This document shows, piece after piece, positions 46,463 through 59,482 of a stretch of DNA of 64,000 bases. Source of the stretch: Sulfurovum sp. Its GTDB lineage: Bacteria > Campylobacterota > Campylobacteria > Campylobacterales > Sulfurovaceae. The stretch covers positions 62,001 to 126,000 of the forward strand of contig JAMORY010000011.1 in NCBI GenBank assembly GCA_027063305.1, read 5' to 3'. The number at the start of each line of letters is the position of its first letter. Position 1 is the first letter of the stretch. Made by a program: the position numbers and the translations under genes. The notes under the pieces are model-generated. The model made no database searches and was not told the origin of the DNA. It was given only the letters and a program-made list of their open reading frames with translations.

Positions 46463-47908
46463 TTACTTCATCGCCGTAAGCGTCTGGTACTCATGCAGGG
46501 CGTAATCATCGGTCATTCCACTGATATAATCGACAATAAGCCGAACACGATAGTACCACTCCAACAATCTAAATGATGCTTCATCTTGCTTCTTGATAGC
46601 CTCGACACTGTTCTTGTATGCCACGATCTGCTTAGGTGATATCCTCCGTATCAGACGCATGGAGATAAAGCAGTCTATCTTCTTCTCTGCTAAAAGTGCC
46701 TCAATATCCGATACATCCAGCTCAAGCAGCGGTTTGTAGATATTGAATAGCCCATTGATAATGGTATATCCTTGCATCTCCAGTGTCTGCACCTCTTTAT
46801 GTCGGTAGATATGTCTACGCGATACCTCTTGCAGGATCTTGATCGCTTTGTAATAGGTACTCTCTTTATCATACTCTAGCAGCGGCGCATCAAAAGAGCC
46901 TTCAAAGATCGCTTCATGATTGGCAAGATATATCTCCACCACATACTTTACCAGTGCAGTCACAAGATTGGCGCGTGTCAAGGTAAAGAACATATTGAAC
47001 TGATAGGGCTCTTGATCTTTTTTTGCCTTTTCATACTGCTTCCTCACCACTTCTAAAAGATACGTCTCCCCTTGCTTTTGGCACGCTTGGGTAATGAGCG
47101 TATAGACTTCATCGAGCGTGAGTATCCCCTTTTCTACCGAATCTTCCAGATCGGCGGTCAGGTAGGAGATGTCATCTGCCGCTTCCATAATGTAGGTAAT
47201 AGGAAAACGGTGTCCAGGTATAACCCCCAAGATCTGCCACATCGTCTCAATTTGCTCTTTTTCGCTATAGAAGTAACCCGGTTTTTTACGGATATAGCTT
47301 AAGGGCTCTCCCTCTGCCGGCGGGCTCTCGAATGCACCGCGGGTATATTTGAGTACAGAGAGTATCTGCATATAGGAGAGGTTAAGACGCTGAAGTTTGG
47401 TAATAAGCCGAATGGCCTGTGCATTGCCGTCATAGTTGCAGAGGTCTTGCCAGAGTATATGCTTAAGCTCTAATGACGCTTCATCGGTGGCAGGGAAAGC
47501 ATGCCATATCTTATACAAGTGTTCCTCTATCCATTTATTGATCGTCTGCTCGGCAAAGTGCCCAAATGGGGGATTTCCAATGTCATGTAATAGACTGGTC
47601 ATCTCGGAAGTGGAGACAAAAGCGTTCTCAAGTCCATCGAGACGGTACGTTTCCAAGCCCTCTTCTTTGAGCTTTGCCAAAATGCTTTTGCCAATAAAAC
47701 GTGCTGTTTGCGCCACCTCCAACGAGTGTGTTAAACGGGTACGGATGGAAGCGTTTAGCTCCAAAGCAAAGACTTGCGTACGCTTTTGCAGACGTCGCAT
47801 CCCGGAAGAGGAGAGAATACGCCCTCTATCGCTCTCTACGGAGTAGTCAAGCTCTTTAATAGGATAGAACTCACGGTGTGTTGTCAATCGTTTTTGGTAG
47901 TCTATCAT
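46463..47908 (-). CDS. dgt: dNTP triphosphohydrolase (dGTPase)
   Basis: 481 residues. The HD motif is visible as TSLLHDIGNPPFGHFAEQ, preceded by RTRLTHSLEVAQTARFIG and followed by ADDISYLTADLEDSV, all typical of the Dgt family. It cleaves dGTP to deoxyguanosine and tripolyphosphate, controlling the dNTP pool and limiting some phages. Convergent with the broken GGDEF-EAL gene, 5 bp apart. Confidence 0.9.
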   Translation of the reverse strand: MIDYQKRLTTHREFYPIKELDYSVESDRGRILSSSGMRRLQKRTQVFALELNASIRTRLTHSLEVAQTARFIGKSILAKLKEEGLETYRLDGLENAFVSTSEMTSLLHDIGNPPFGHFAEQTINKWIEEHLYKIWHAFPATDEASLELKHILWQDLCNYDGNAQAIRLITKLQRLNLSYMQILSVLKYTRGAFESPPAEGEPLSYIRKKPGYFYSEKEQIETMWQILGVIPGHRFPITYIMEAADDISYLTADLEDSVEKGILTLDEVYTLITQACQKQGETYLLEVVRKQYEKAKKDQEPYQFNMFFTLTRANLVTALVKYVVEIYLANHEAIFEGSFDAPLLEYDKESTYYKAIKILQEVSRRHIYRHKEVQTLEMQGYTIINGLFNIYKPLLELDVSDIEALLAEKKIDCFISMRLIRRISPKQIVAYKNSVEAIKKQDEASFRLLEWYYRVRLIVDYISGMTDDYALHEYQTLTAMK

Positions 47909-50587: not shown

Positions 50588-50656
50588 ATTGATAACAAAT
50601 ATGACAATTTGACATATTATTACATATCGATACAATCAATTTATTATACTTTTATC

Positions 50657-51145
50657 ATGAACTATATCACACATCCACGAAAAAATATTCGTCTGCCCTA
50701 TTATGATTATACCTCAGAAGGGATGTACTTCATTACGATTTGCACAAGACACAGAGAGGCTTTCTTTGGCACCATTACTGACAGAAAACTCATACTCAAT
50801 GATGCAGGAGCGATGGTCAAACATACATGGCAGACCATTCCTGACAGATTCCCCTCTGTTTATTTGCATGAATATATCATCATGCCAAACCATTTTCATG
50901 CGATCTTGGAGATCGATCATACAACATCCACCCAACTGGGTGATATCATCGGTGCGTTCAAATCCATTTCAACCAACCGTTACATTCATGGTGTACGCAA
51001 CCAAAACTGGGAACCATTTGAGAAGAGACTGTGGCAGCGTAATTATTATGAACATGTCATACGCAATGAGAAATCCTACCTGACTCTTACAGAATATATT
51101 CAGAACAATCCATTATCGTGGAAAGAAGATATATTTTATATGTAA
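50657..51145 (+). CDS. REP-associated tyrosine transposase (RAYT, Y1 HUH family)
   Basis: 162 residues from the ATG at 50657 (MNYITHPRKNIRLPYYDYTSEGMYFITI). The HUH metal motif reads PNHFHAI, and the catalytic Tyr lies in QRNYYEHVIRNEKSY. IS200/IS605-like enzymes of this subgroup are single domesticated genes that cut REP hairpins next to a GTAG tetranucleotide. Here the gene stands between REP pairs with exactly that GTAG head. It has no terminal repeats of its own. Confidence 0.88.
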   Translation: MNYITHPRKNIRLPYYDYTSEGMYFITICTRHREAFFGTITDRKLILNDAGAMVKHTWQTIPDRFPSVYLHEYIIMPNHFHAILEIDHTTSTQLGDIIGAFKSISTNRYIHGVRNQNWEPFEKRLWQRNYYEHVIRNEKSYLTLTEYIQNNPLSWKEDIFYM

Positions 51146-51333: not shown

Positions 51334-52812
51334 CTAAACCCGTTTCAATACCTCCAACACCTTCACCATCGCCAGCGTATCCAGCTTACAATACGCCAGC
51401 AAAGCCTCTCGCATCTTCTCCAGCTCCCTGCCCTCCAGTTGTGACATCCGAGCAAATGCACGCATCGCTTCACCACCGTTCTGTACACCGTCAAGTTCTT
51501 GGTAGGCTGCTGCCATTTCAGGTACGAGTGCGGGGAGGACGTATTTGATGGAGTAGCTTCCTTGCATCTGTGGGGTGGTGTACCAGCCTTTTTGGAAAGG
51601 GAGCATGAGGTCTTTGATGTTGTCATGGATCGCCATGAGGTGCTCAGCATGGTGTGGGAACTGCTCTGCAAGGTTTCTTAGCACCCTTTTTTCAAAGCTC
51701 ATGTTGTAAGCCAGGACAGTAACATCACGGGGGATGTCTGCTATGAGTCTACGTACCAGTGCCTCACGAGGGTCTTGCCCCGCTTCTGCCAGAAACTCAC
51801 GGTGTTCGAGTCTGCTATCAGCATATTCAATGTGCAGTGAGTACTGAAATGGTATCTGCATAAAGGGTTTGATGCCTCTCCATTCGGGGATAGCCTGCTG
51901 AAAAGTCTCGAAGTCAAGGTGATAGAGCGGATAGTCCAGTTCTGAGAGAAAGGCTTGTATCTTTTCTGTGTCTATGTGTATCATGCCGTTTTTGTACTGC
52001 GCTACTTTGGCTTTTTGCTTGGCGGTCATCTCGAAATCTTCGGGGATGTCGTCTAAGTCAACGATGCCCTGTGCATAGAGGGCTACTTGTTTTTTGCTGC
52101 CAAGGTTGAAGATGTTGAAGATGGAGTAGTCGGGTATGTTTCGCTGGACTTTCCAGCAGTAGGCTTTGGCGTCACATTCGTAGGGTTTGTTGCAGTGGTA
52201 GCCTATGTCGATGTCAGGTTCATTCTGTGTGTCGGAGAGATACTCCTCCCACTCTGCAAGCCTTTGGGGTATCTGCTCTTGCAGCTTCTGCACTTCAGCA
52301 GTGACATCCACCACACAAAAAAGCCTCTCAAGCTCCAGCTCCTCCCCTCTGACATAGCTACTGTCTATATGGATAACATTTGCACTTTTTACCCGCATCC
52401 CCAGACCACGCAGTACATAGTACTGCACCGAAACATCATGCAGATAGATCTCCTTGACAGAGGTAGAGCTCTTGACCTCGTAGAGCGACACAGAGCCATC
52501 CTCCGCCACATACAACACATCGACCATCACCAAGACACCCTCATAGATAAAGGTCGCTTCATAGATGTTCCGAACACCCTCCTCTAGCAACCTTGCGGTA
52601 CTCTCTGCCATCTGAGCATACTCTCTGCTAAACTCCACCTCTACCCCACCGGGAAACAGCTCACACGCCAACTCCCCTACTGCATGACCTGTGTCAAAAA
52701 CTGCCTGAGCGGAAGCATCGGGAGGGGTGAGTACTTCAGGTTTATATTTTTTGAGCCAAAGGGATTTGGGGCATTGGATGGCTCGGGTGTAGAGGGATTT
52801 TGAGAGGGTCAT
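51334..52812 (-). CDS. DUF2779 protein: Cas4-like nuclease plus DnaQ-like exonuclease
   Basis: 492 residues. The N-terminal half is Cas4/RecB-like: Cys14 in QCPKSLW, Asp98 in VMVDVLY, Glu112/Lys114 in YEVKSS, a QxxxY-like DVSVQYYVL, and Cys207, Cys213, Cys219, which with Cys14 can hold a 4Fe-4S cluster. The C-terminal half carries a DEDD-type start YHLDFETFQ near residue 293 and YCKLDTLAM near the end. The ATG overlaps the stop of the NACHT gene (TAATG), so they are co-translated. Its base composition is host-like, unlike the NACHT gene. Confidence 0.78.
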   Translation of the reverse strand: MTLSKSLYTRAIQCPKSLWLKKYKPEVLTPPDASAQAVFDTGHAVGELACELFPGGVEVEFSREYAQMAESTARLLEEGVRNIYEATFIYEGVLVMVDVLYVAEDGSVSLYEVKSSTSVKEIYLHDVSVQYYVLRGLGMRVKSANVIHIDSSYVRGEELELERLFCVVDVTAEVQKLQEQIPQRLAEWEEYLSDTQNEPDIDIGYHCNKPYECDAKAYCWKVQRNIPDYSIFNIFNLGSKKQVALYAQGIVDLDDIPEDFEMTAKQKAKVAQYKNGMIHIDTEKIQAFLSELDYPLYHLDFETFQQAIPEWRGIKPFMQIPFQYSLHIEYADSRLEHREFLAEAGQDPREALVRRLIADIPRDVTVLAYNMSFEKRVLRNLAEQFPHHAEHLMAIHDNIKDLMLPFQKGWYTTPQMQGSYSIKYVLPALVPEMAAAYQELDGVQNGGEAMRAFARMSQLEGRELEKMREALLAYCKLDTLAMVKVLEVLKRV

Positions 52813-54257
52813 TATTTCAAATGCTCAATACTTTTATTGTCTTTCAATCCATCTATTAATTTTTCAAATTCTTTTTTAACCTTATCATTCCCATAATCAA
52901 ACCAAGACTTAATCTCTTCGATATCAAATAAGTTATTTTCTAAACCAAAAATAAATAACCCTTTTAGTGTATTAAAAATATGCATATCCCTCTCACTAAA
53001 ACTTTTGTGATGTACTTCAAGCAAAACAACTTTATCTGCACCTTCATTAACCAATCCTGTTCTTGAATTATTAGTCATACTTCTCAACATATTTGCTAAC
53101 TTATAAGGTATAAATACATATTGTGCTATTCTAGACATACCTAAATCTAATGCATTTCTATCAATTAAATTCAAATTATCAAATATCGAGTACCTAAGAT
53201 CACAATTTGTTAAATCTACACTATAAAAACTACAACCTGCAAAATTTGTACCATTACAATGGGCACCATAAGCACTAATATTGGCTAAAAATGAATAAGA
53301 AAAATTTAAAGATGATAAATTTGAAAAATTTATATTAATAGTTCTGTTTTTGTTTTTATCTAACCGTATACCAACAAAATAATTTTTTACCCATATTGGT
53401 GCAGAGGCATTATTGGAATAATTCCAATTTTTAATCATTTCAAATAAATTTTCAGGATTTTCCAATCTTCCATTAAAAAAAACTCTTTCTTCTATATTGT
53501 CAGTATGTAATAAATTACCGACCAACAAAGCTAACCATTTATCAATGTCCGTTGGATTATTACTCATTTGCATATTTGTAAATAATGTTAATTCTTTATC
53601 AAATAGAGCATTTTTTGGTTCTGTCTTAGCTAATACTAATGTGCTTTTGGAATCTATTATATTTTTTGCTAATTCTATTATTTTTTCCAATTCATCATTA
53701 TTGATTGCCCAACTGGTTAAAAGTTCTTCTGGTATAGTAGTCGAATCTTTATTGAATTCAACTCTATCAAACCATTTAAATTGAATTGCCTGACTATGCA
53801 AAGTATTGTTTCTTCCCATTGAAAGTGCAGCAAAAAGAGGATAAAGTAATTTTCTTTTTTCGATAATACTATCATCAGGTTCGTCACTAACTGTCTCTTT
53901 AAGTAGATTCAGTAATTCTTTAAAAAACTGTATAGTCTGTTCAGTAGGTTCACCTAATACTAGTTTACTTCTTGCCATATCCATATCTATATTTGTTTCC
54001 AATGCAAATTTTATGAATACTTTCAAATAATACTCTGCTAAAAGTATCTCTGCAAAAGATTGATGTTGAAAATGTAAATTATTGTTTTCTTCCCCAAAAT
54101 AAGAATGTGAAAGAAATTGTATTTCGGTTACTCCTTGGTTTTTAAATCTTTCAAGAATTGCTTTATCATCTTCAATAGGAGAAGACTTTTCTTCTAGTAC
54201 TCTACATATATCCGCTTTATTTAAAATTCCTTGCTTTCCTTGTTGACGTTCGTACAT
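52812..54257 (-). CDS. NACHT protein, C-terminal part with pentapeptide-like repeats
   Basis: 481 residues from the first ATG, but the frame is open back to about 54350 (AAKHVDDKTHS, EEEIRYRNILHAISALW), so this is the downstream part of the NACHT gene. A helical region (FLSHSYFGEENNNLHFQHQS; HQSFAEILLAEYYL is typical after NACHT domains) is followed by a stretch of pentapeptide-like repeats (NFSNLSSLNFSYSFL, NGTNFAGCSFYSVDL, TNCDLRYSIF) and a helical end. Very AT-rich. It is coupled to the DUF2779 gene. Confidence 0.7.
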   Translation of the reverse strand: MYERQQGKQGILNKADICRVLEEKSSPIEDDKAILERFKNQGVTEIQFLSHSYFGEENNNLHFQHQSFAEILLAEYYLKVFIKFALETNIDMDMARSKLVLGEPTEQTIQFFKELLNLLKETVSDEPDDSIIEKRKLLYPLFAALSMGRNNTLHSQAIQFKWFDRVEFNKDSTTIPEELLTSWAINNDELEKIIELAKNIIDSKSTLVLAKTEPKNALFDKELTLFTNMQMSNNPTDIDKWLALLVGNLLHTDNIEERVFFNGRLENPENLFEMIKNWNYSNNASAPIWVKNYFVGIRLDKNKNRTININFSNLSSLNFSYSFLANISAYGAHCNGTNFAGCSFYSVDLTNCDLRYSIFDNLNLIDRNALDLGMSRIAQYVFIPYKLANMLRSMTNNSRTGLVNEGADKVVLLEVHHKSFSERDMHIFNTLKGLFIFGLENNLFDIEEIKSWFDYGNDKVKKEFEKLIDGLKDNKSIEHLK

Positions 54258-54334
54258 CCAAAGTGCAGATATTGCATGTAATATATTTCTATATCTAATC
54301 TCCTCTTCTTGATCTATAGAGTGAGTTTTATCAT

Positions 54335-55927
54335 CTACATGTTTAGCAGCAGATTAATAAATGAAAGATACACACCTATTTTACCAATAGTTATAAAATC
54401 TACATTATTAATTATTAGTTGATAAATCATATAAGAAAAAATCGGTCTTCTTAATTCTGTTCTTGACAATGTTTTTGTTTTATATAATTTTTCATAAATA
54501 TCTATTTTTTTACCAGTTTTTATACTTTTCACAATTTCTTTTGCAAAGCCTTTTAAATTGTCCTCATTAGGTAATACGTTATTTTTTAATGTATCATAAA
54601 GCCAACTATTAAATTGCTCTTGTTTGAAACCATAAAGAGAGATAAAATATGCTACTTCTTTCTCTGTTTCTTTTTCCTTAATAATATAAGGCTTATGTGA
54701 GGTTAAATGTTCTTCTAATCCATCTGAAAAAGGTCTTGAAGTTATAATTATTCTATTATCTCTACATTTTTCTTTATCAATATTTTGAATTTTCTTTACA
54801 GAATTTATTACTTTATTTATTTTTTCTTTCGTTAATTCCCCACTTTCATCTAGTGAGTCAATTAAAAAAATATATTTATTTTTTTTAAATTCATCATCAT
54901 TTATTCTTATTGCATATTCGTCAAGTAAATATGAACCTATTACCCCTAATTCACCATCATCAGAATATAAAGAAAAATTTCTCAAATTGAAATATATAGG
55001 GATATAACCTTCTTTTGTTTCACTATATTTTTTAGCTAATTTTGAAGCATATTGTCTTAAAAAAACAGATTTACCTTTACCAAAATCAGCTATTGCAAAA
55101 AGTATATTTTGTATACACCCGTCGTTAGCTGTACAGTCAGAAAAATACTCTTCAATTAGTAGTTCGATAGATTTTAAATTTTTTTCATGTATTCGATATT
55201 CTTCATCATCTTCCTCTTGCTCCTTATCCAATACACTTGAAACTGGTTTCCAACTAGCATATGTTTTTTCATATTTTAGTGATTCCCCTTCTTTAAATCC
55301 TATTTTTCTCAAAGAATACATATCATAGAGTAATTTAGACTCTCTTTCATCTCTCCAAAAAACTTCTATCTCTTTTCTATGTTTTTCATAGTCATCACTT
55401 CCAAAAACTTGAATGATAGTAGCTTCTATATGTTCATTAAAATTACTTTTGAAGTTCTTAATACTTTCAGAAGGCACATTTAATTGATCTAATATCTTTT
55501 CCATTTTTTCTTTTGTGAAAACAACTATAGGGTGATAACGAGGTGTAAAAATCGTTACTAAATGTTCTTTTGTAAATTTCTTTTTATCTATTTCAAGGGT
55601 ATCTGTTAATAGGGATACTATAGACGATACATCAAAAGTATTTTTTTCATCTAATTCTAAAGTCTCCATAGACTTACCTACTTGTACTAATGAAGCTTTC
55701 ATATACATAGCAGAACCATAATTTTCTAATTTATTTTTAGTTAATTTATCAAAGTAACTATCTACTTTATCTTGAGCAAAAATTTTAATAAGTACACCAA
55801 CAGTGCCGTTTGCATTTGATAGTGCCTCTTGTCCTGCATCATCAAAATTATCTTTAACATAGCCTACAGCATTTTTTAATACATTAGGCAAAGCCGATGT
55901 AATACTTGTAATAAGTTTTTTACTCAT
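54335..55927 (-). CDS. NACHT NTPase, N-terminal part (frameshifted)
   Basis: 530 residues. An N-terminal helical region of about 260 residues of unknown type precedes a NACHT-class STAND ATPase: Walker A ADFGKGKS (280-287), Walker B IFLIDSLDES (353-362) and the sensor RIIITSRPF (393-400). It ends at a TAG (54335-54337) one base out of frame with the downstream part; full length would be about 1035 residues. AAGGGAG precedes the ATG. Bacterial NACHT proteins are known antiphage NLR-like proteins. The AT-rich composition marks it as foreign. Confidence 0.78.
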   Translation of the reverse strand: MSKKLITSITSALPNVLKNAVGYVKDNFDDAGQEALSNANGTVGVLIKIFAQDKVDSYFDKLTKNKLENYGSAMYMKASLVQVGKSMETLELDEKNTFDVSSIVSLLTDTLEIDKKKFTKEHLVTIFTPRYHPIVVFTKEKMEKILDQLNVPSESIKNFKSNFNEHIEATIIQVFGSDDYEKHRKEIEVFWRDERESKLLYDMYSLRKIGFKEGESLKYEKTYASWKPVSSVLDKEQEEDDEEYRIHEKNLKSIELLIEEYFSDCTANDGCIQNILFAIADFGKGKSVFLRQYASKLAKKYSETKEGYIPIYFNLRNFSLYSDDGELGVIGSYLLDEYAIRINDDEFKKNKYIFLIDSLDESGELTKEKINKVINSVKKIQNIDKEKCRDNRIIITSRPFSDGLEEHLTSHKPYIIKEKETEKEVAYFISLYGFKQEQFNSWLYDTLKNNVLPNEDNLKGFAKEIVKSIKTGKKIDIYEKLYKTKTLSRTELRRPIFSYMIYQLIINNVDFITIGKIGVYLSFINLLLNM

Positions 55928-56007
55928 AGTTACTCCCTTTAATTAAATTATCTTATCTGAATATTATATGATTTCCACTATCATTAATTAGTTAATAAAT
56001 TCTATTC

Positions 56008-58374
56008 TCACAACTCTACCACCCTCTCAAACATCTCCTTGATCTCACTCTCATGAGAGATAAGAAATATCTGCCGATACTGCTCTTTGATGGTGTGAAA
56101 CGCCTCCATGATCTCATAGCGGCGTTCTTCGTCCTGGGAGCCGAACACCTCATCGAACGCTAAGAAACCAACTCCGCCGCTGCCGCTAAGCTCACTCAGT
56201 GTCTTGGAGATGGCGATGCGAAGTACGAGGTTGGCTAGGTCTATCTCTCCGCCTGAGAAGCGTTCTATGGGGTAGTGTATGCCGTCGTCGTAGATGAAGA
56301 AGTCGAACTCGTTGCTTACCTCGATGTGCTGGTACTTTCCTCGGGTGATGGCTGCGTACATCTGGCTTGCCAGTTGGGTGATGCGTGGGGCTATCTGGGA
56401 GTTGATGCGGTTTTTGAACTCTCCCATGAAAGCTTTGAGCTTCTCGTAGTCGTTCTTGTCATCCAGCTTGGTCTGTAACTGCTTTTTCTGCTCTTCATTT
56501 CGGGCAAGTTTGCTTTGGAGGGTTGTTATCTCCCCTTCTGCCCCTTTGAGCTTCACCCTCTCATCTGAGAGCTGTTTTGCCAGCTCCTCTTTGGATTGAC
56601 GTTCTTTGAGGTACAACGCTTCCTGAGCCTCATGTGCTTTGGCATCGTAACTGTGCTCGGCGATGGCCTTCTCCTGCTTTTTGATCTGTTCTTGACTCTG
56701 GACGATGCTCTCTTCTATGGTTTTGAGCTCACTCTCCAGTGCAGGGATCTGGGCGATGAGCTTCTGTACTCCCAGAAGCTCTTCATATTTCGGCTTTAAC
56801 TTATCTCTCTTGCCTGTCTGCTCCTGATGCATCTTCTCATCATACTTCACATCTTTGAGCGTCTCCAACTCCTGCTTGTTCTTTAAGCCTTTATCTCTGA
56901 CTTTTATGAACTCTTCTTCTTTGAGCAGGAGTGCCTTCTCATCTGCTTCCAACAGTCGTAGATCGCCATTGAGCTTTTGCAAAACCTCTTCTGCTTTTTT
57001 ATGCGCTTCTTCCTCTTTTTGCTTCTCTTCCAAGACCTTTTTGAGCGTTGCTTCCCGTTTGACTATCTCATCGGTATGAAACTTGGTAATGGTCTCGTTG
57101 AGAGAGGCGATCACATTGTCATATTCGTCAAGAAGCGGACGGGTACAGGTAGGACAGTTGGAACCCTTGCCTATGGCTTCTATCTGTTTGACTTTCTTTT
57201 GGGTATCGTTTATGAGTCCCTGAAAACCTGCTATCTCTTTGTTCAGATCGCTCTCTTGTTTGACTGTCTCACTAAGCTTTGCTTTGATGCTTTCTCGCAA
57301 ACTGCTTTTTACCTCTATCTCTTTTAAGAGCTGCGGTTTAACTTCCACCTTTTTTCTCAGTGCATCCCTTTGCGCTTTGACCGTTTCGTATTGAACACGG
57401 AGATCATCCTGTTCTTTTTCAAGGGCTTTTTTTCGTTCAAACCTCACCTGCTCTTTTTGCAGTGCATGGATGCTCTCTTCCAGTGCTTTATAGTCTGCAA
57501 GAAGAGGTTTATCCTTCTCATACTGGGTGGCTTTGCGTTTCAGCGCTTCTATTTTTTCTTTTTTCTCTTTTTGATTTTTAGTGAGGTTCTCACGTTTTGT
57601 CTGCATGACTGCAAGTTCAGACCCCAGCTTGACATACGCTTCTTTCAGCTCCTGCATAGCTTTGAGCGCTTTCTCTAGCTTATCCACCTCTTTGCGCTTG
57701 GCTTCCAGACTTTTTTCCAGCTTCTCTACCTCTTTTTTCAGCTCCTCTGCCTCTTTGGTTTTGACCTCTTTTGCTTCTTCCAGCGCTTTGACCTCTGCCT
57801 CTGAGAGCAGTATCTCCGAAAAACTCCGTATGTCACGGTTCAGGTCAGTCAGTCTGCTGCGTATCTCCTGCTCTATCTTGTCTATCTTCTCCAGTCCGAG
57901 CAGCTTTCGGATGATCTTCTTTCGCTCTTCGTTCTTGAGTCCGCTTAGAGCCGTCAGCTCCTTTTGGGAGGCAAAGACCGTGTGCATGAACGCCTCTTTG
58001 TTCATGCCAATGAGCCGGATGATCTCGGAGGTGACCCCTCGGGCTGTATCGGCTATGAGCGTATCATCTGCATCGTAGAGGTAGGCTTTGGCAGTCAGAC
58101 TCTTGCCTCGTAGTTCCCGTACCACTTTGTAGCTCCTGGCATCTATCTCAAATACCAGTGTCACGATTACCGCCTCTTTTTCTCCTGCTTTGGCGTAACG
58201 GATGGTCTCTTTCTCTCCACGTGTATCGCCATAGAGTGCGAAGCTGATGGCATCGAAGATGGTGGACTTCCCCGAACCGTTGCGACCGATGATCCCCGTA
58301 AGCCCCTCGGCAAACTCCAGCGTATGGTCACGGTACTTTTTGTAGTTTTGCATGTGGAGGCTATTGAGTATCAT
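56008..58374 (-). CDS. sbcC: SbcC/Rad50-type ATPase
   Basis: 788 residues from the ATG at 58374 (or 58377), with GGAGG 6 bases upstream. ABC-type halves: Walker A IIGRNGSGKST at the N-terminus, and signature FSGGEIDLANL with Walker B FLAFDEVFGSQDEE at the C-terminus. They are separated by long coiled coils with the zinc hook NCPTCTRP. With SbcD it resects DNA ends and cuts hairpins and palindromes. It overlaps sbcD by 14 bp. Shorter than the E. coli protein. Confidence 0.92.
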   Translation of the reverse strand: MILNSLHMQNYKKYRDHTLEFAEGLTGIIGRNGSGKSTIFDAISFALYGDTRGEKETIRYAKAGEKEAVIVTLVFEIDARSYKVVRELRGKSLTAKAYLYDADDTLIADTARGVTSEIIRLIGMNKEAFMHTVFASQKELTALSGLKNEERKKIIRKLLGLEKIDKIEQEIRSRLTDLNRDIRSFSEILLSEAEVKALEEAKEVKTKEAEELKKEVEKLEKSLEAKRKEVDKLEKALKAMQELKEAYVKLGSELAVMQTKRENLTKNQKEKKEKIEALKRKATQYEKDKPLLADYKALEESIHALQKEQVRFERKKALEKEQDDLRVQYETVKAQRDALRKKVEVKPQLLKEIEVKSSLRESIKAKLSETVKQESDLNKEIAGFQGLINDTQKKVKQIEAIGKGSNCPTCTRPLLDEYDNVIASLNETITKFHTDEIVKREATLKKVLEEKQKEEEAHKKAEEVLQKLNGDLRLLEADEKALLLKEEEFIKVRDKGLKNKQELETLKDVKYDEKMHQEQTGKRDKLKPKYEELLGVQKLIAQIPALESELKTIEESIVQSQEQIKKQEKAIAEHSYDAKAHEAQEALYLKERQSKEELAKQLSDERVKLKGAEGEITTLQSKLARNEEQKKQLQTKLDDKNDYEKLKAFMGEFKNRINSQIAPRITQLASQMYAAITRGKYQHIEVSNEFDFFIYDDGIHYPIERFSGGEIDLANLVLRIAISKTLSELSGSGGVGFLAFDEVFGSQDEERRYEIMEAFHTIKEQYRQIFLISHESEIKEMFERVVEL

Positions 58375-59482
58375 CATCGACCTCCTCATAGAGTGCAAAG
58401 AGCTCTTTGGCTTTGAGAGCGAGCCTCTCCTGCTCCGCCTCATCTGTCACGGACTCTTTGATGTGCGAGATGAAATAAGCTTCCAGAGAGATGGACTCTA
58501 TATTCCCCTCTATCTGCTCACCCTCCACCACTTTAAACTCACGCTTAACCTTGACATGCAGTGCATCGGCAAAGATCGCCTCTAACGCCTGGTTGGTAAT
58601 GTCTATGGAGCTTGATGCCGTAAGGTTGTAGAGCTTCACCTCCACCAGGGCATCTTTAACCGCAGAGAGATCAAGCGATGCCACCGCTTCTTCAAACTGC
58701 TCCGCATCGATGCTGAAGCTGAGTGACTTCCGAAGAGGGATAGTGTGATGGCTGATCTTTAGATCATTTTCCAGTTCCACCAACACATAACCTTTCTCCT
58801 CTCGTTTATCAGCGCTGCTTGTGCGTTCGGTCGAGCCTGCGTAGTAGACATTGGGGTGTTTGCCCACAGCGCCAAATCCATGCCAGTGCCCCAACGCCAC
58901 ATAGTCCATCTTCTCAAAAATATCTTCCCGTTCTCTGGGGTAGACCCACTCTCCGAACTCATGCATGAGGTACTGCGCCCCTACCGAGCAGTGCATCATC
59001 ATGATGTTTCGCTTTGTGGGGTCTATGTTTGCTTCGATCTTGTCCAACTCCCCCTCAATGATGCGTTCATCGTTGATATGCGGCAGACCGTGAAACACAA
59101 CATCGTCAAACACCACCTTCTCATACTGCTGCCCAAAAACAGCATGCACATTGTCCAAAGAGCGAAACGCTTCAAGAATGGGAGAAGAGCTGGAGGTACG
59201 CGGTGTGGAGTGGTTTCCGGCAATGATAATAAGTGGAATGTCTGCTTCTTCCAGCCGTTTGAACTGTGTCAAAGCTGCCGTAATGGCACGGTTGGATGGA
59301 GAAGCACGGTGGAAGAGATCGCCCGTGTGGATGGCATAGTCGGGCTTTGTCTTTATGATGGCATCGATGACATCTGAGAATGCCTTGTAAAAGTCCGCTT
59401 CACGCTGGTTGATACCTGCATCGTTGGTAATATCCAGATCGGAGAAACCCAGATGGGTATCGGAAAAATGTATGATCTTCAC
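58361..59482 (-). CDS. sbcD: SbcD/Mre11-type nuclease
   Basis: 373 residues of the calcineurin-like phosphoesterase fold: HFSDTHLGF, IHTGDLFHR, IIAGNHSTPR, MMHCSVGA and ALGHWHGFG carry the metal ligands. It is the nuclease subunit of the SbcCD complex. Its stop overlaps the sbcC start. It is divergent from thpR. Confidence 0.92.
   Translation of the reverse strand: MKIIHFSDTHLGFSDLDITNDAGINQREADFYKAFSDVIDAIIKTKPDYAIHTGDLFHRASPSNRAITAALTQFKRLEEADIPLIIIAGNHSTPRTSSSSPILEAFRSLDNVHAVFGQQYEKVVFDDVVFHGLPHINDERIIEGELDKIEANIDPTKRNIMMMHCSVGAQYLMHEFGEWVYPREREDIFEKMDYVALGHWHGFGAVGKHPNVYYAGSTERTSSADKREEKGYVLVELENDLKISHHTIPLRKSLSFSIDAEQFEEAVASLDLSAVKDALVEVKLYNLTASSSIDITNQALEAIFADALHVKVKREFKVVEGEQIEGNIESISLEAYFISHIKESVTDEAEQERLALKAKELFALYEEVDDDTQ

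Follow-up and report, generated by a model that had tools for sequence, protein, structure and literature searches.

In the 64,000-nucleotide stretch of a Sulfurovum sp. genome analyzed here (the window), a gene with a NACHT ATPase domain runs directly into the gene for a DUF2779 nuclease. Comparison with related loci indicates that this arrangement is very probably one filling of an exchangeable defense slot in a frame of genes with the order sbcD-sbcC-(slot 1)-DUF2779-(slot 2)-dgt. In the Campylobacterota, the frame genes are conserved, and what lies between the stop codon of sbcC and the start codon of DUF2779 is replaced from locus to locus by unrelated genes, mostly relatives of known anti-phage systems. 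On the best reading of the data, the NACHT gene is foreign, decayed cargo in this slot, and DUF2779 belongs to the SbcCD/Dgt frame.

Results

The frame in the window begins with sbcD (58361..59482, minus strand as for all frame and slot genes; 373 amino acids; Pfam Metallophos, 1.1e-14), whose orthologs in the Sulfurovum genomes G024 and G452 are 80% identical (G and L numbers denote genomes and loci). The end of sbcD is overlapped by sbcC (56008..58443, 811 amino acids; Pfam AAA_23, SMC_N, and SbcC_Walker_B), the left border of slot 1. The slot itself, as delimited by DNA similarity breakpoints against relatives, extends over 52815..56007 and holds the broken NACHT gene; its right border is the DUF2779 gene (51334..52812, 492 amino acids; Pfam 1.3e-47). 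The gene for a dgt-like dGTPase (46463..47908, 481 amino acids; Pfam HD/HD_assoc) is located 3.4 kb downstream of DUF2779 with other genes between them, whereas in relatives dgt lies directly behind DUF2779. It is 64–69% identical to the dgt genes adjoining DUF2779 elsewhere.

An initial annotation of this DNA had described the NACHT and DUF2779 genes as a minus-strand pair at 51334–55927 joined by a TAATG overlap. Coordinates, strand, and joint are all borne out, the NACHT stop codon and the DUF2779 ATG sharing one base at 52812; no evident Shine-Dalgarno sequence was found at the DUF2779 start in the window. The base compositions that it had pointed to are likewise confirmed: the NACHT gene is very AT-rich (GC 0.269), compared with 0.481 for sbcC and 0.501 for DUF2779, whose composition is host-like, and sbcD, sbcC, DUF2779, and dgt together range from 0.46 to 0.50. 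Among the proposed neighbors, sbcD, sbcC, and dgt are present, and the supposed RelBE is a toxin-antitoxin pair of the ParE/Phd type. On the plus strand, the DNA of an ORF region at 50609–51145 encodes IIMPNHFHAIL, a motif typical of REP-associated tyrosine transposases, in agreement with the RAYT proposed there; the 126-amino acid ORF at 50703–51083 gave no Pfam match.

We examined the NACHT gene as the content of the slot. It consists of two ORFs in different frames, a 5′ ORF of 530 amino acids (54335..55927) with the N-terminal region and the NACHT ATPase and a 3′ ORF of 481 amino acids (52812..54257, in a frame open from 54344) with the C-terminal region. The NACHT ATPase gene of the first description therefore stands by its domain and not as a single open frame. 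The domain, with its P-loop as in bNACHT proteins, covers residues 283–411 of the N-terminal ORF and scores 26.5 bits against a Pfam cutoff of 26.7 and, in the genome search, 28.8 bits, which is above the cutoff. The pentapeptide-like repeats reported earlier correspond to a weak match in the 3′ ORF, below the cutoff (19.4 versus 20.2 bits), and the gene has no PADLOC match at E ≤ 0.1.

DNA alignment with four intact homologs showed that 10 nt are absent from the window gene at 54347..54348, within a stretch that is open in all four. The conserved sequence affected is YLSF(I/L)N(L/I)LTK(E/D)AKH, which is shorter yet in frame in one homolog, and a short CTGCT/GCT repeat leaves the exact deletion joint ambiguous by a few bases. 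The homologs, a 1004-amino acid protein from a genome of the same order and three more from 397 genomes of the phylum, all read through the split site, and the 5′ and 3′ ORFs are 43–63% and 38–59% identical to them, respectively. As it stands, the window encodes no single intact protein joining the ATPase to the C-terminal region. Beyond the window's own genome, a search of 60 relatives turned up the family in one, and the 397 phylum genomes yielded three others. The intact homolog of G059 (L024:8131-12234, minus strand) is flanked by a complete gene for an Rpn-like nuclease and a partial similar gene.

The frameshift could be an assembly or sequencing error in a functional gene, as the window comes from a draft assembly (34 contigs) and a single copy was seen. 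We consider this improbable, because ten bases missing at a short repeat in a conserved stretch are unlike a single-base read error. The NACHT gene is thus probably broken, and its protein is most likely non-functional.

The DUF2779 gene is intact and matches PF11074 with 161.6 bits (cutoff 23.3). Its earlier description as a two-nuclease protein, with four cysteines in a PD-(D/E)XK part and a DEDD-type half, is upheld by conserved residues, a confident model, and fold matches. Among 53 relatives, C207, C213, and C219 are invariant and C14 nearly so, and the catalytic motifs D98/E112-V-K114 and D300-F-E302...D478 are conserved. The AlphaFold2 model has a pLDDT of 94.6, and Foldseek returned matches to Cas4 and human EXO5 and, more weakly, to RNase T. 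The PD-(D/E)XK core, the four cysteines, and the fold matches (PDB entries 8d3l and 7lw7) are those of a Cas4-like Fe-S nuclease fold, and the modeled protein is a predicted Cas4/EXO5-like nuclease with an added DEDD exonuclease. Its PADLOC Cas4 score is weak (2e-4), and a sequence-based search found no solved relatives. The fold matches fit the published placement of DUF2779 (PF11074), which assigns it to the RNase H-like proteins as family F.17, joined to a DUF83 (PD-(D/E)XK) domain, and predicts a 3′–5′ exonuclease (PMC3985635); the window protein belongs to this family and has the same two-nuclease make-up. A second DUF2779 gene in the window's genome (G000:C7:35580-37034, L034:9580-11064) is 44% identical and lies directly behind a 64-amino acid ORF that recurs in G001. 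On plasmids of Rhodoferax and Diaphorobacter (L062 and L063), DUF2779 has a gene for an ATP-binding protein on one side and one for a WYL-domain protein on the other.

The adjacency of the two genes had been read as a dedicated system, with the NACHT ATPase as the phage sensor and the coupled nuclease as its effector, under the caveat that the pairing might be recent and accidental. It is the caveat that holds. In Sulfurovum G024 and G452, DUF2779 orthologs 72–78% identical to the window's occupy the same sbcC locus without a NACHT gene and are preceded by Lamassu or HamB-like cargo. DUF2779 occurs in 18 of 60 relatives, and the gene upstream of it varies (LmuB of Lamassu, RhuM, HsdS, a PD-(D/E)XK protein, GmrSD, a Schlafen-type protein, and others). 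The loci of the NACHT homologs gave a matching result, as none of the three with readable downstream genes has DUF2779 there; the fourth homolog is cut off by the end of its contig. A conserved NACHT-DUF2779 pair was rejected on these grounds.

The window is not the only place where a NACHT gene adjoins DUF2779, because on the Aliarcobacter plasmid pM830MA a different NACHT protein is encoded directly before it, which, with the TAATG coupling, is what speaks for a dedicated system. This 954-amino acid protein, however, has 34% identity to the window's over 94 amino acids, is unrelated to it beyond the ATPase, and sits in the same swappable slot. Taken with the frameshift in the window gene, these observations make a dedicated system highly improbable: a foreign, broken passenger at a position where relatives carry other systems is not one half of a dedicated team.

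Public genomes contributed another 80 loci. The unit sbcD-sbcC-(cargo)-DUF2779-dgt, in some cases with further cargo before dgt, is conserved on Sulfurovum chromosomes and Arcobacteraceae plasmids. Annotated plasmids of the latter show a constant order of sbcD, sbcC, variable genes, DUF2779, variable genes, and dgt, and the Sulfurovum genomes G024, G452, and, without DUF2779, G451 carry the frame at the chromosomal site that it occupies in the window. Locus L099 (Helicobacteraceae) is a complete compact operon, sbcD-sbcC-OLD-DUF2779-dgt, packed end to end. An upstream sbcC was not seen at every locus, partly owing to contig ends. Of the 21 loci whose DUF2779 shares 57% or more identity with the window protein, 20 have an upstream gene in the same direction that ends no more than 21 nt from the DUF2779 start; for the remaining DUF2779 loci, the count is about 12 of 52 (Fisher p about 9e-9). 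Three further genomes (G437, G035, and G034; L064, L065, and L066) have a distant dgt-like gene, 27–28% identical, upstream of sbcD, accompanied by proteins of 1025 and 1181 amino acids. In some Clostridia, DUF2779 lies beside SbcD/SbcC-like genes (L108, L115, L121, and L136), an adjacency that hints at a possibly old, functional link.

The borders of slot 1 are sharp. Between Arcobacteraceae plasmids, the frame has about 90–95% DNA identity, and the DNA from the sbcC stop to the DUF2779 start is unrelated; the matches end a few bases from the sbcC stop (10–22 nt before it in the pAFAEC pairs) and restart at the DUF2779 ATG or within about 10 nt. The same holds for the chromosomes of the window, G024, and G452, among which identity falls from 93% over the final 60 nt of sbcC to 32–40% over the next 60 nt and rises from 23–25% over the 60 nt ahead of DUF2779 to 87–95% over its initial 60 nt.

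Partial copies of the border genes lie beside the cargo. In L026, L080, L143, and L156, a second cargo is preceded by a DUF2779 5′ end, which forms a direct repeat of 84–161 bp with 87–91% identity to the intact start. DUF2779 3′ ends precede dgt in L156 and L157. Pieces of the sbcC 3′ end occur in L072, L073, L074, L085, and L090, and in L082 the tail of a second sbcC lies just behind the first. In Sulfurovum G009, G027, and G019, remnants of 28–73 codons are all that is left of sbcC (L072:8611-8829, L073:10786-10893, and L074:9268-9351, respectively), and G027 additionally retains two DUF2779 3′ ends (L073). These partial gene ends record earlier swaps. No terminal inverted or direct repeats of the kind that delimit transposons or integrative elements are common to the cargo ends of 18 loci, and an 11-bp inverted repeat at the slot ends of the window (TTTGAGAGGGT) was discarded as a candidate, being absent from the other loci.

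The genes of the frame may be mere anchors with unrelated, housekeeping-like roles, between which cargo lands where recombination is tolerated. They do resemble repair enzymes, the Sulfurovum spot is flanked by the same neighbors (SpoU and LigT on one side and a 132-amino acid ORF on the other), and the retention of scraps only in G009, G019, and G027 implies that the frame is dispensable. We regard this as a serious alternative of somewhat less than even probability, since the frame also forms a unit on plasmids of another family. Moreover, dgt of this kind occurs in only four of 61 Sulfurovum genomes, and in three it adjoins DUF2779 or lies close to it, which better suits a traveling module.

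Slot 1 was surveyed through PADLOC and Pfam matches, so that the function of the cargo is assigned by homology. Its contents in the Campylobacterota are Lamassu, Hachiman, Gabija, OLD, Ppl, Qat, HerA/SIR2, RhuM, FRG, PrrC-like, restriction-modification, or NACHT genes. Individual assignments comprise HamB-like or Hachiman helicases (L076 and L088), HerA (L079 and L087), LmuB (L081, L082, L083, and G024), GajB (L091), OLD (L099), Ppl (L100), FRG (L092), PDC-S06 (p133_LEO_107 and L085), RhuM (G013), a PD-(D/E)XK protein (G027), HsdS (G005), Qat (pACRY43158), and the unrelated NACHT proteins of the window and pM830MA. At E ≤ 1e-10, PADLOC matched 17 of 25 slot-1 proteins, a chosen set of mostly large ones and hence not an unbiased rate, compared with at most nine of 60 proteins from the immediate flanks of the operon (p about 3e-6). 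Defense genes are thus enriched over the neighborhood, as in a hot spot, with the selection of large proteins as a caveat. Slot-1 genes with no defense match include those of L027 (601 amino acids), L084 (295 amino acids), and L090 (581 amino acids).

The cargo is diverse. Across 27 loci, 82 proteins of at least 100 amino acids form 61 families, of which 52 have a single member, and cargo of any kind is common to only 23 of the 351 locus pairs. Recurrent cargo includes SIR2-HerA-like pairs, present at six loci, and a Lamassu-like set of three genes, present at three. The same borders therefore enclose different contents across strains, and the “island-like spot” of the initial annotation is a defense locus with different defense cargo in relatives. 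Outside the Campylobacterota, two of 10 genes upstream of DUF2779 matched PADLOC and no tight coupling was seen, and the idea of DUF2779 as a defense-linked gene in all phyla was rejected. Slot 2, which separates DUF2779 from dgt, is variable as well and holds helicase, AAA, and hypothetical genes in L156–L160; on pCNAC48 (L160), it contains predicted macrolide resistance genes, and dgt is reduced to a 3′ piece.

Discussion

DUF2779 is probably co-translated with whatever gene precedes it. Each cargo would run into the DUF2779 start, and ribosomes finishing the cargo would go on to translate the nuclease; we infer this coupling because the cargo reaches the start codon and, in the window, no ribosome-binding site is evident. 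Exchange of the cargo may proceed by recombination in which sbcC, DUF2779, or dgt serves as a homologous arm and the other end is joined illegitimately. One homologous and one illegitimate end would explain both the 5′ scraps of DUF2779 that precede newer cargo and the 3′ scraps of sbcC and dgt at other loci, and such a pattern of scraps would be expected from homology-facilitated illegitimate recombination.

SbcCD (a DNA-end nuclease), DUF2779 (a Cas4/EXO5-like and DEDD exonuclease), and Dgt (a dGTPase) would together degrade DNA and dNTPs as a frame operating in parallel with the cargo, acting on DNA ends, single strands, and dGTP. In its strongest form, this leads to a mobile immune chassis in which sbcD-sbcC-DUF2779-dgt is a DNA- and dNTP-degrading core, phage sensors or whole systems are interchangeable, the slot is cut exactly between stop and start codon, and DUF2779 is translated only with the preceding cargo. 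We put this forward as a tentative and rather unlikely proposal. Whether the frame enzymes act as a shared effector or amplifier, with DUF2779 as the generic effector nuclease for many sensors, is similarly doubtful. In its favor, DUF2779 is very tightly coupled to each cargo, enzymes for DNA ends, single strands, and dGTP stay together, and SbcD/SbcC adjoin DUF2779 in some Clostridia too; however, tight coupling would arise from swapping at gene ends as well, and the cargo systems manage alone in other settings, as Lamassu, Gabija, Hachiman, and Qat are self-sufficient systems elsewhere. The frame enzymes might alternatively constitute a defense system in their own right.

The exchangeable slot itself has practical value as a finder for new anti-phage systems, because the Campylobacterota genes between sbcC and DUF2779 are candidates and several have no known match. 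The partial gene ends offer a natural record of defense cargo swapping, and three DNA/dNTP-degrading enzymes are tied to defense by position. In the literature searched, which left preprints and many subscription papers outside, we found neither a defense role for DUF2779 nor an SbcCD-dGTPase defense operon, and the papers naming DUF2779 have, by title and abstract, subjects other than anti-phage defense, with no cargo slot mentioned in their accessible parts. The slot thus appears to be undescribed so far. SbcCD, DUF2779, and dGTPase are listed in the gene table of the Aliarcobacter plasmid pM830MA (PMC6690266), where, as far as the accessible part of that paper goes, they are presented as separate plasmid genes, with no exchange slot or defense cargo.

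Compared with Cas4 (8d3l) and human EXO5 (7lw7), the N-terminal half of the DUF2779 model matches and the four conserved cysteines are present, as for an iron-sulfur cluster, but DUF2779 has an extra DEDD half. The NACHT gene resembles the anti-phage bNACHT proteins (e.g. PMC12169576) in its layout, with the NACHT ATPase in the center and a further region C-terminal to it, and it differs from them in that the window copy is frameshifted and unmatched by PADLOC. The slot is most like the core defense hot spots cDHS1 and cDHS2 of Pseudomonas aeruginosa (Johnson et al. 2023, PMC10250203), with which it shares a fixed place between conserved genes and many different anti-phage systems across strains. 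Unlike cDHS1 and cDHS2, it lies inside one co-directional operon and is cut at the stop and start codons, its borders are accessory nuclease genes found on both chromosomes and plasmids, and partial border genes mark the earlier swaps.
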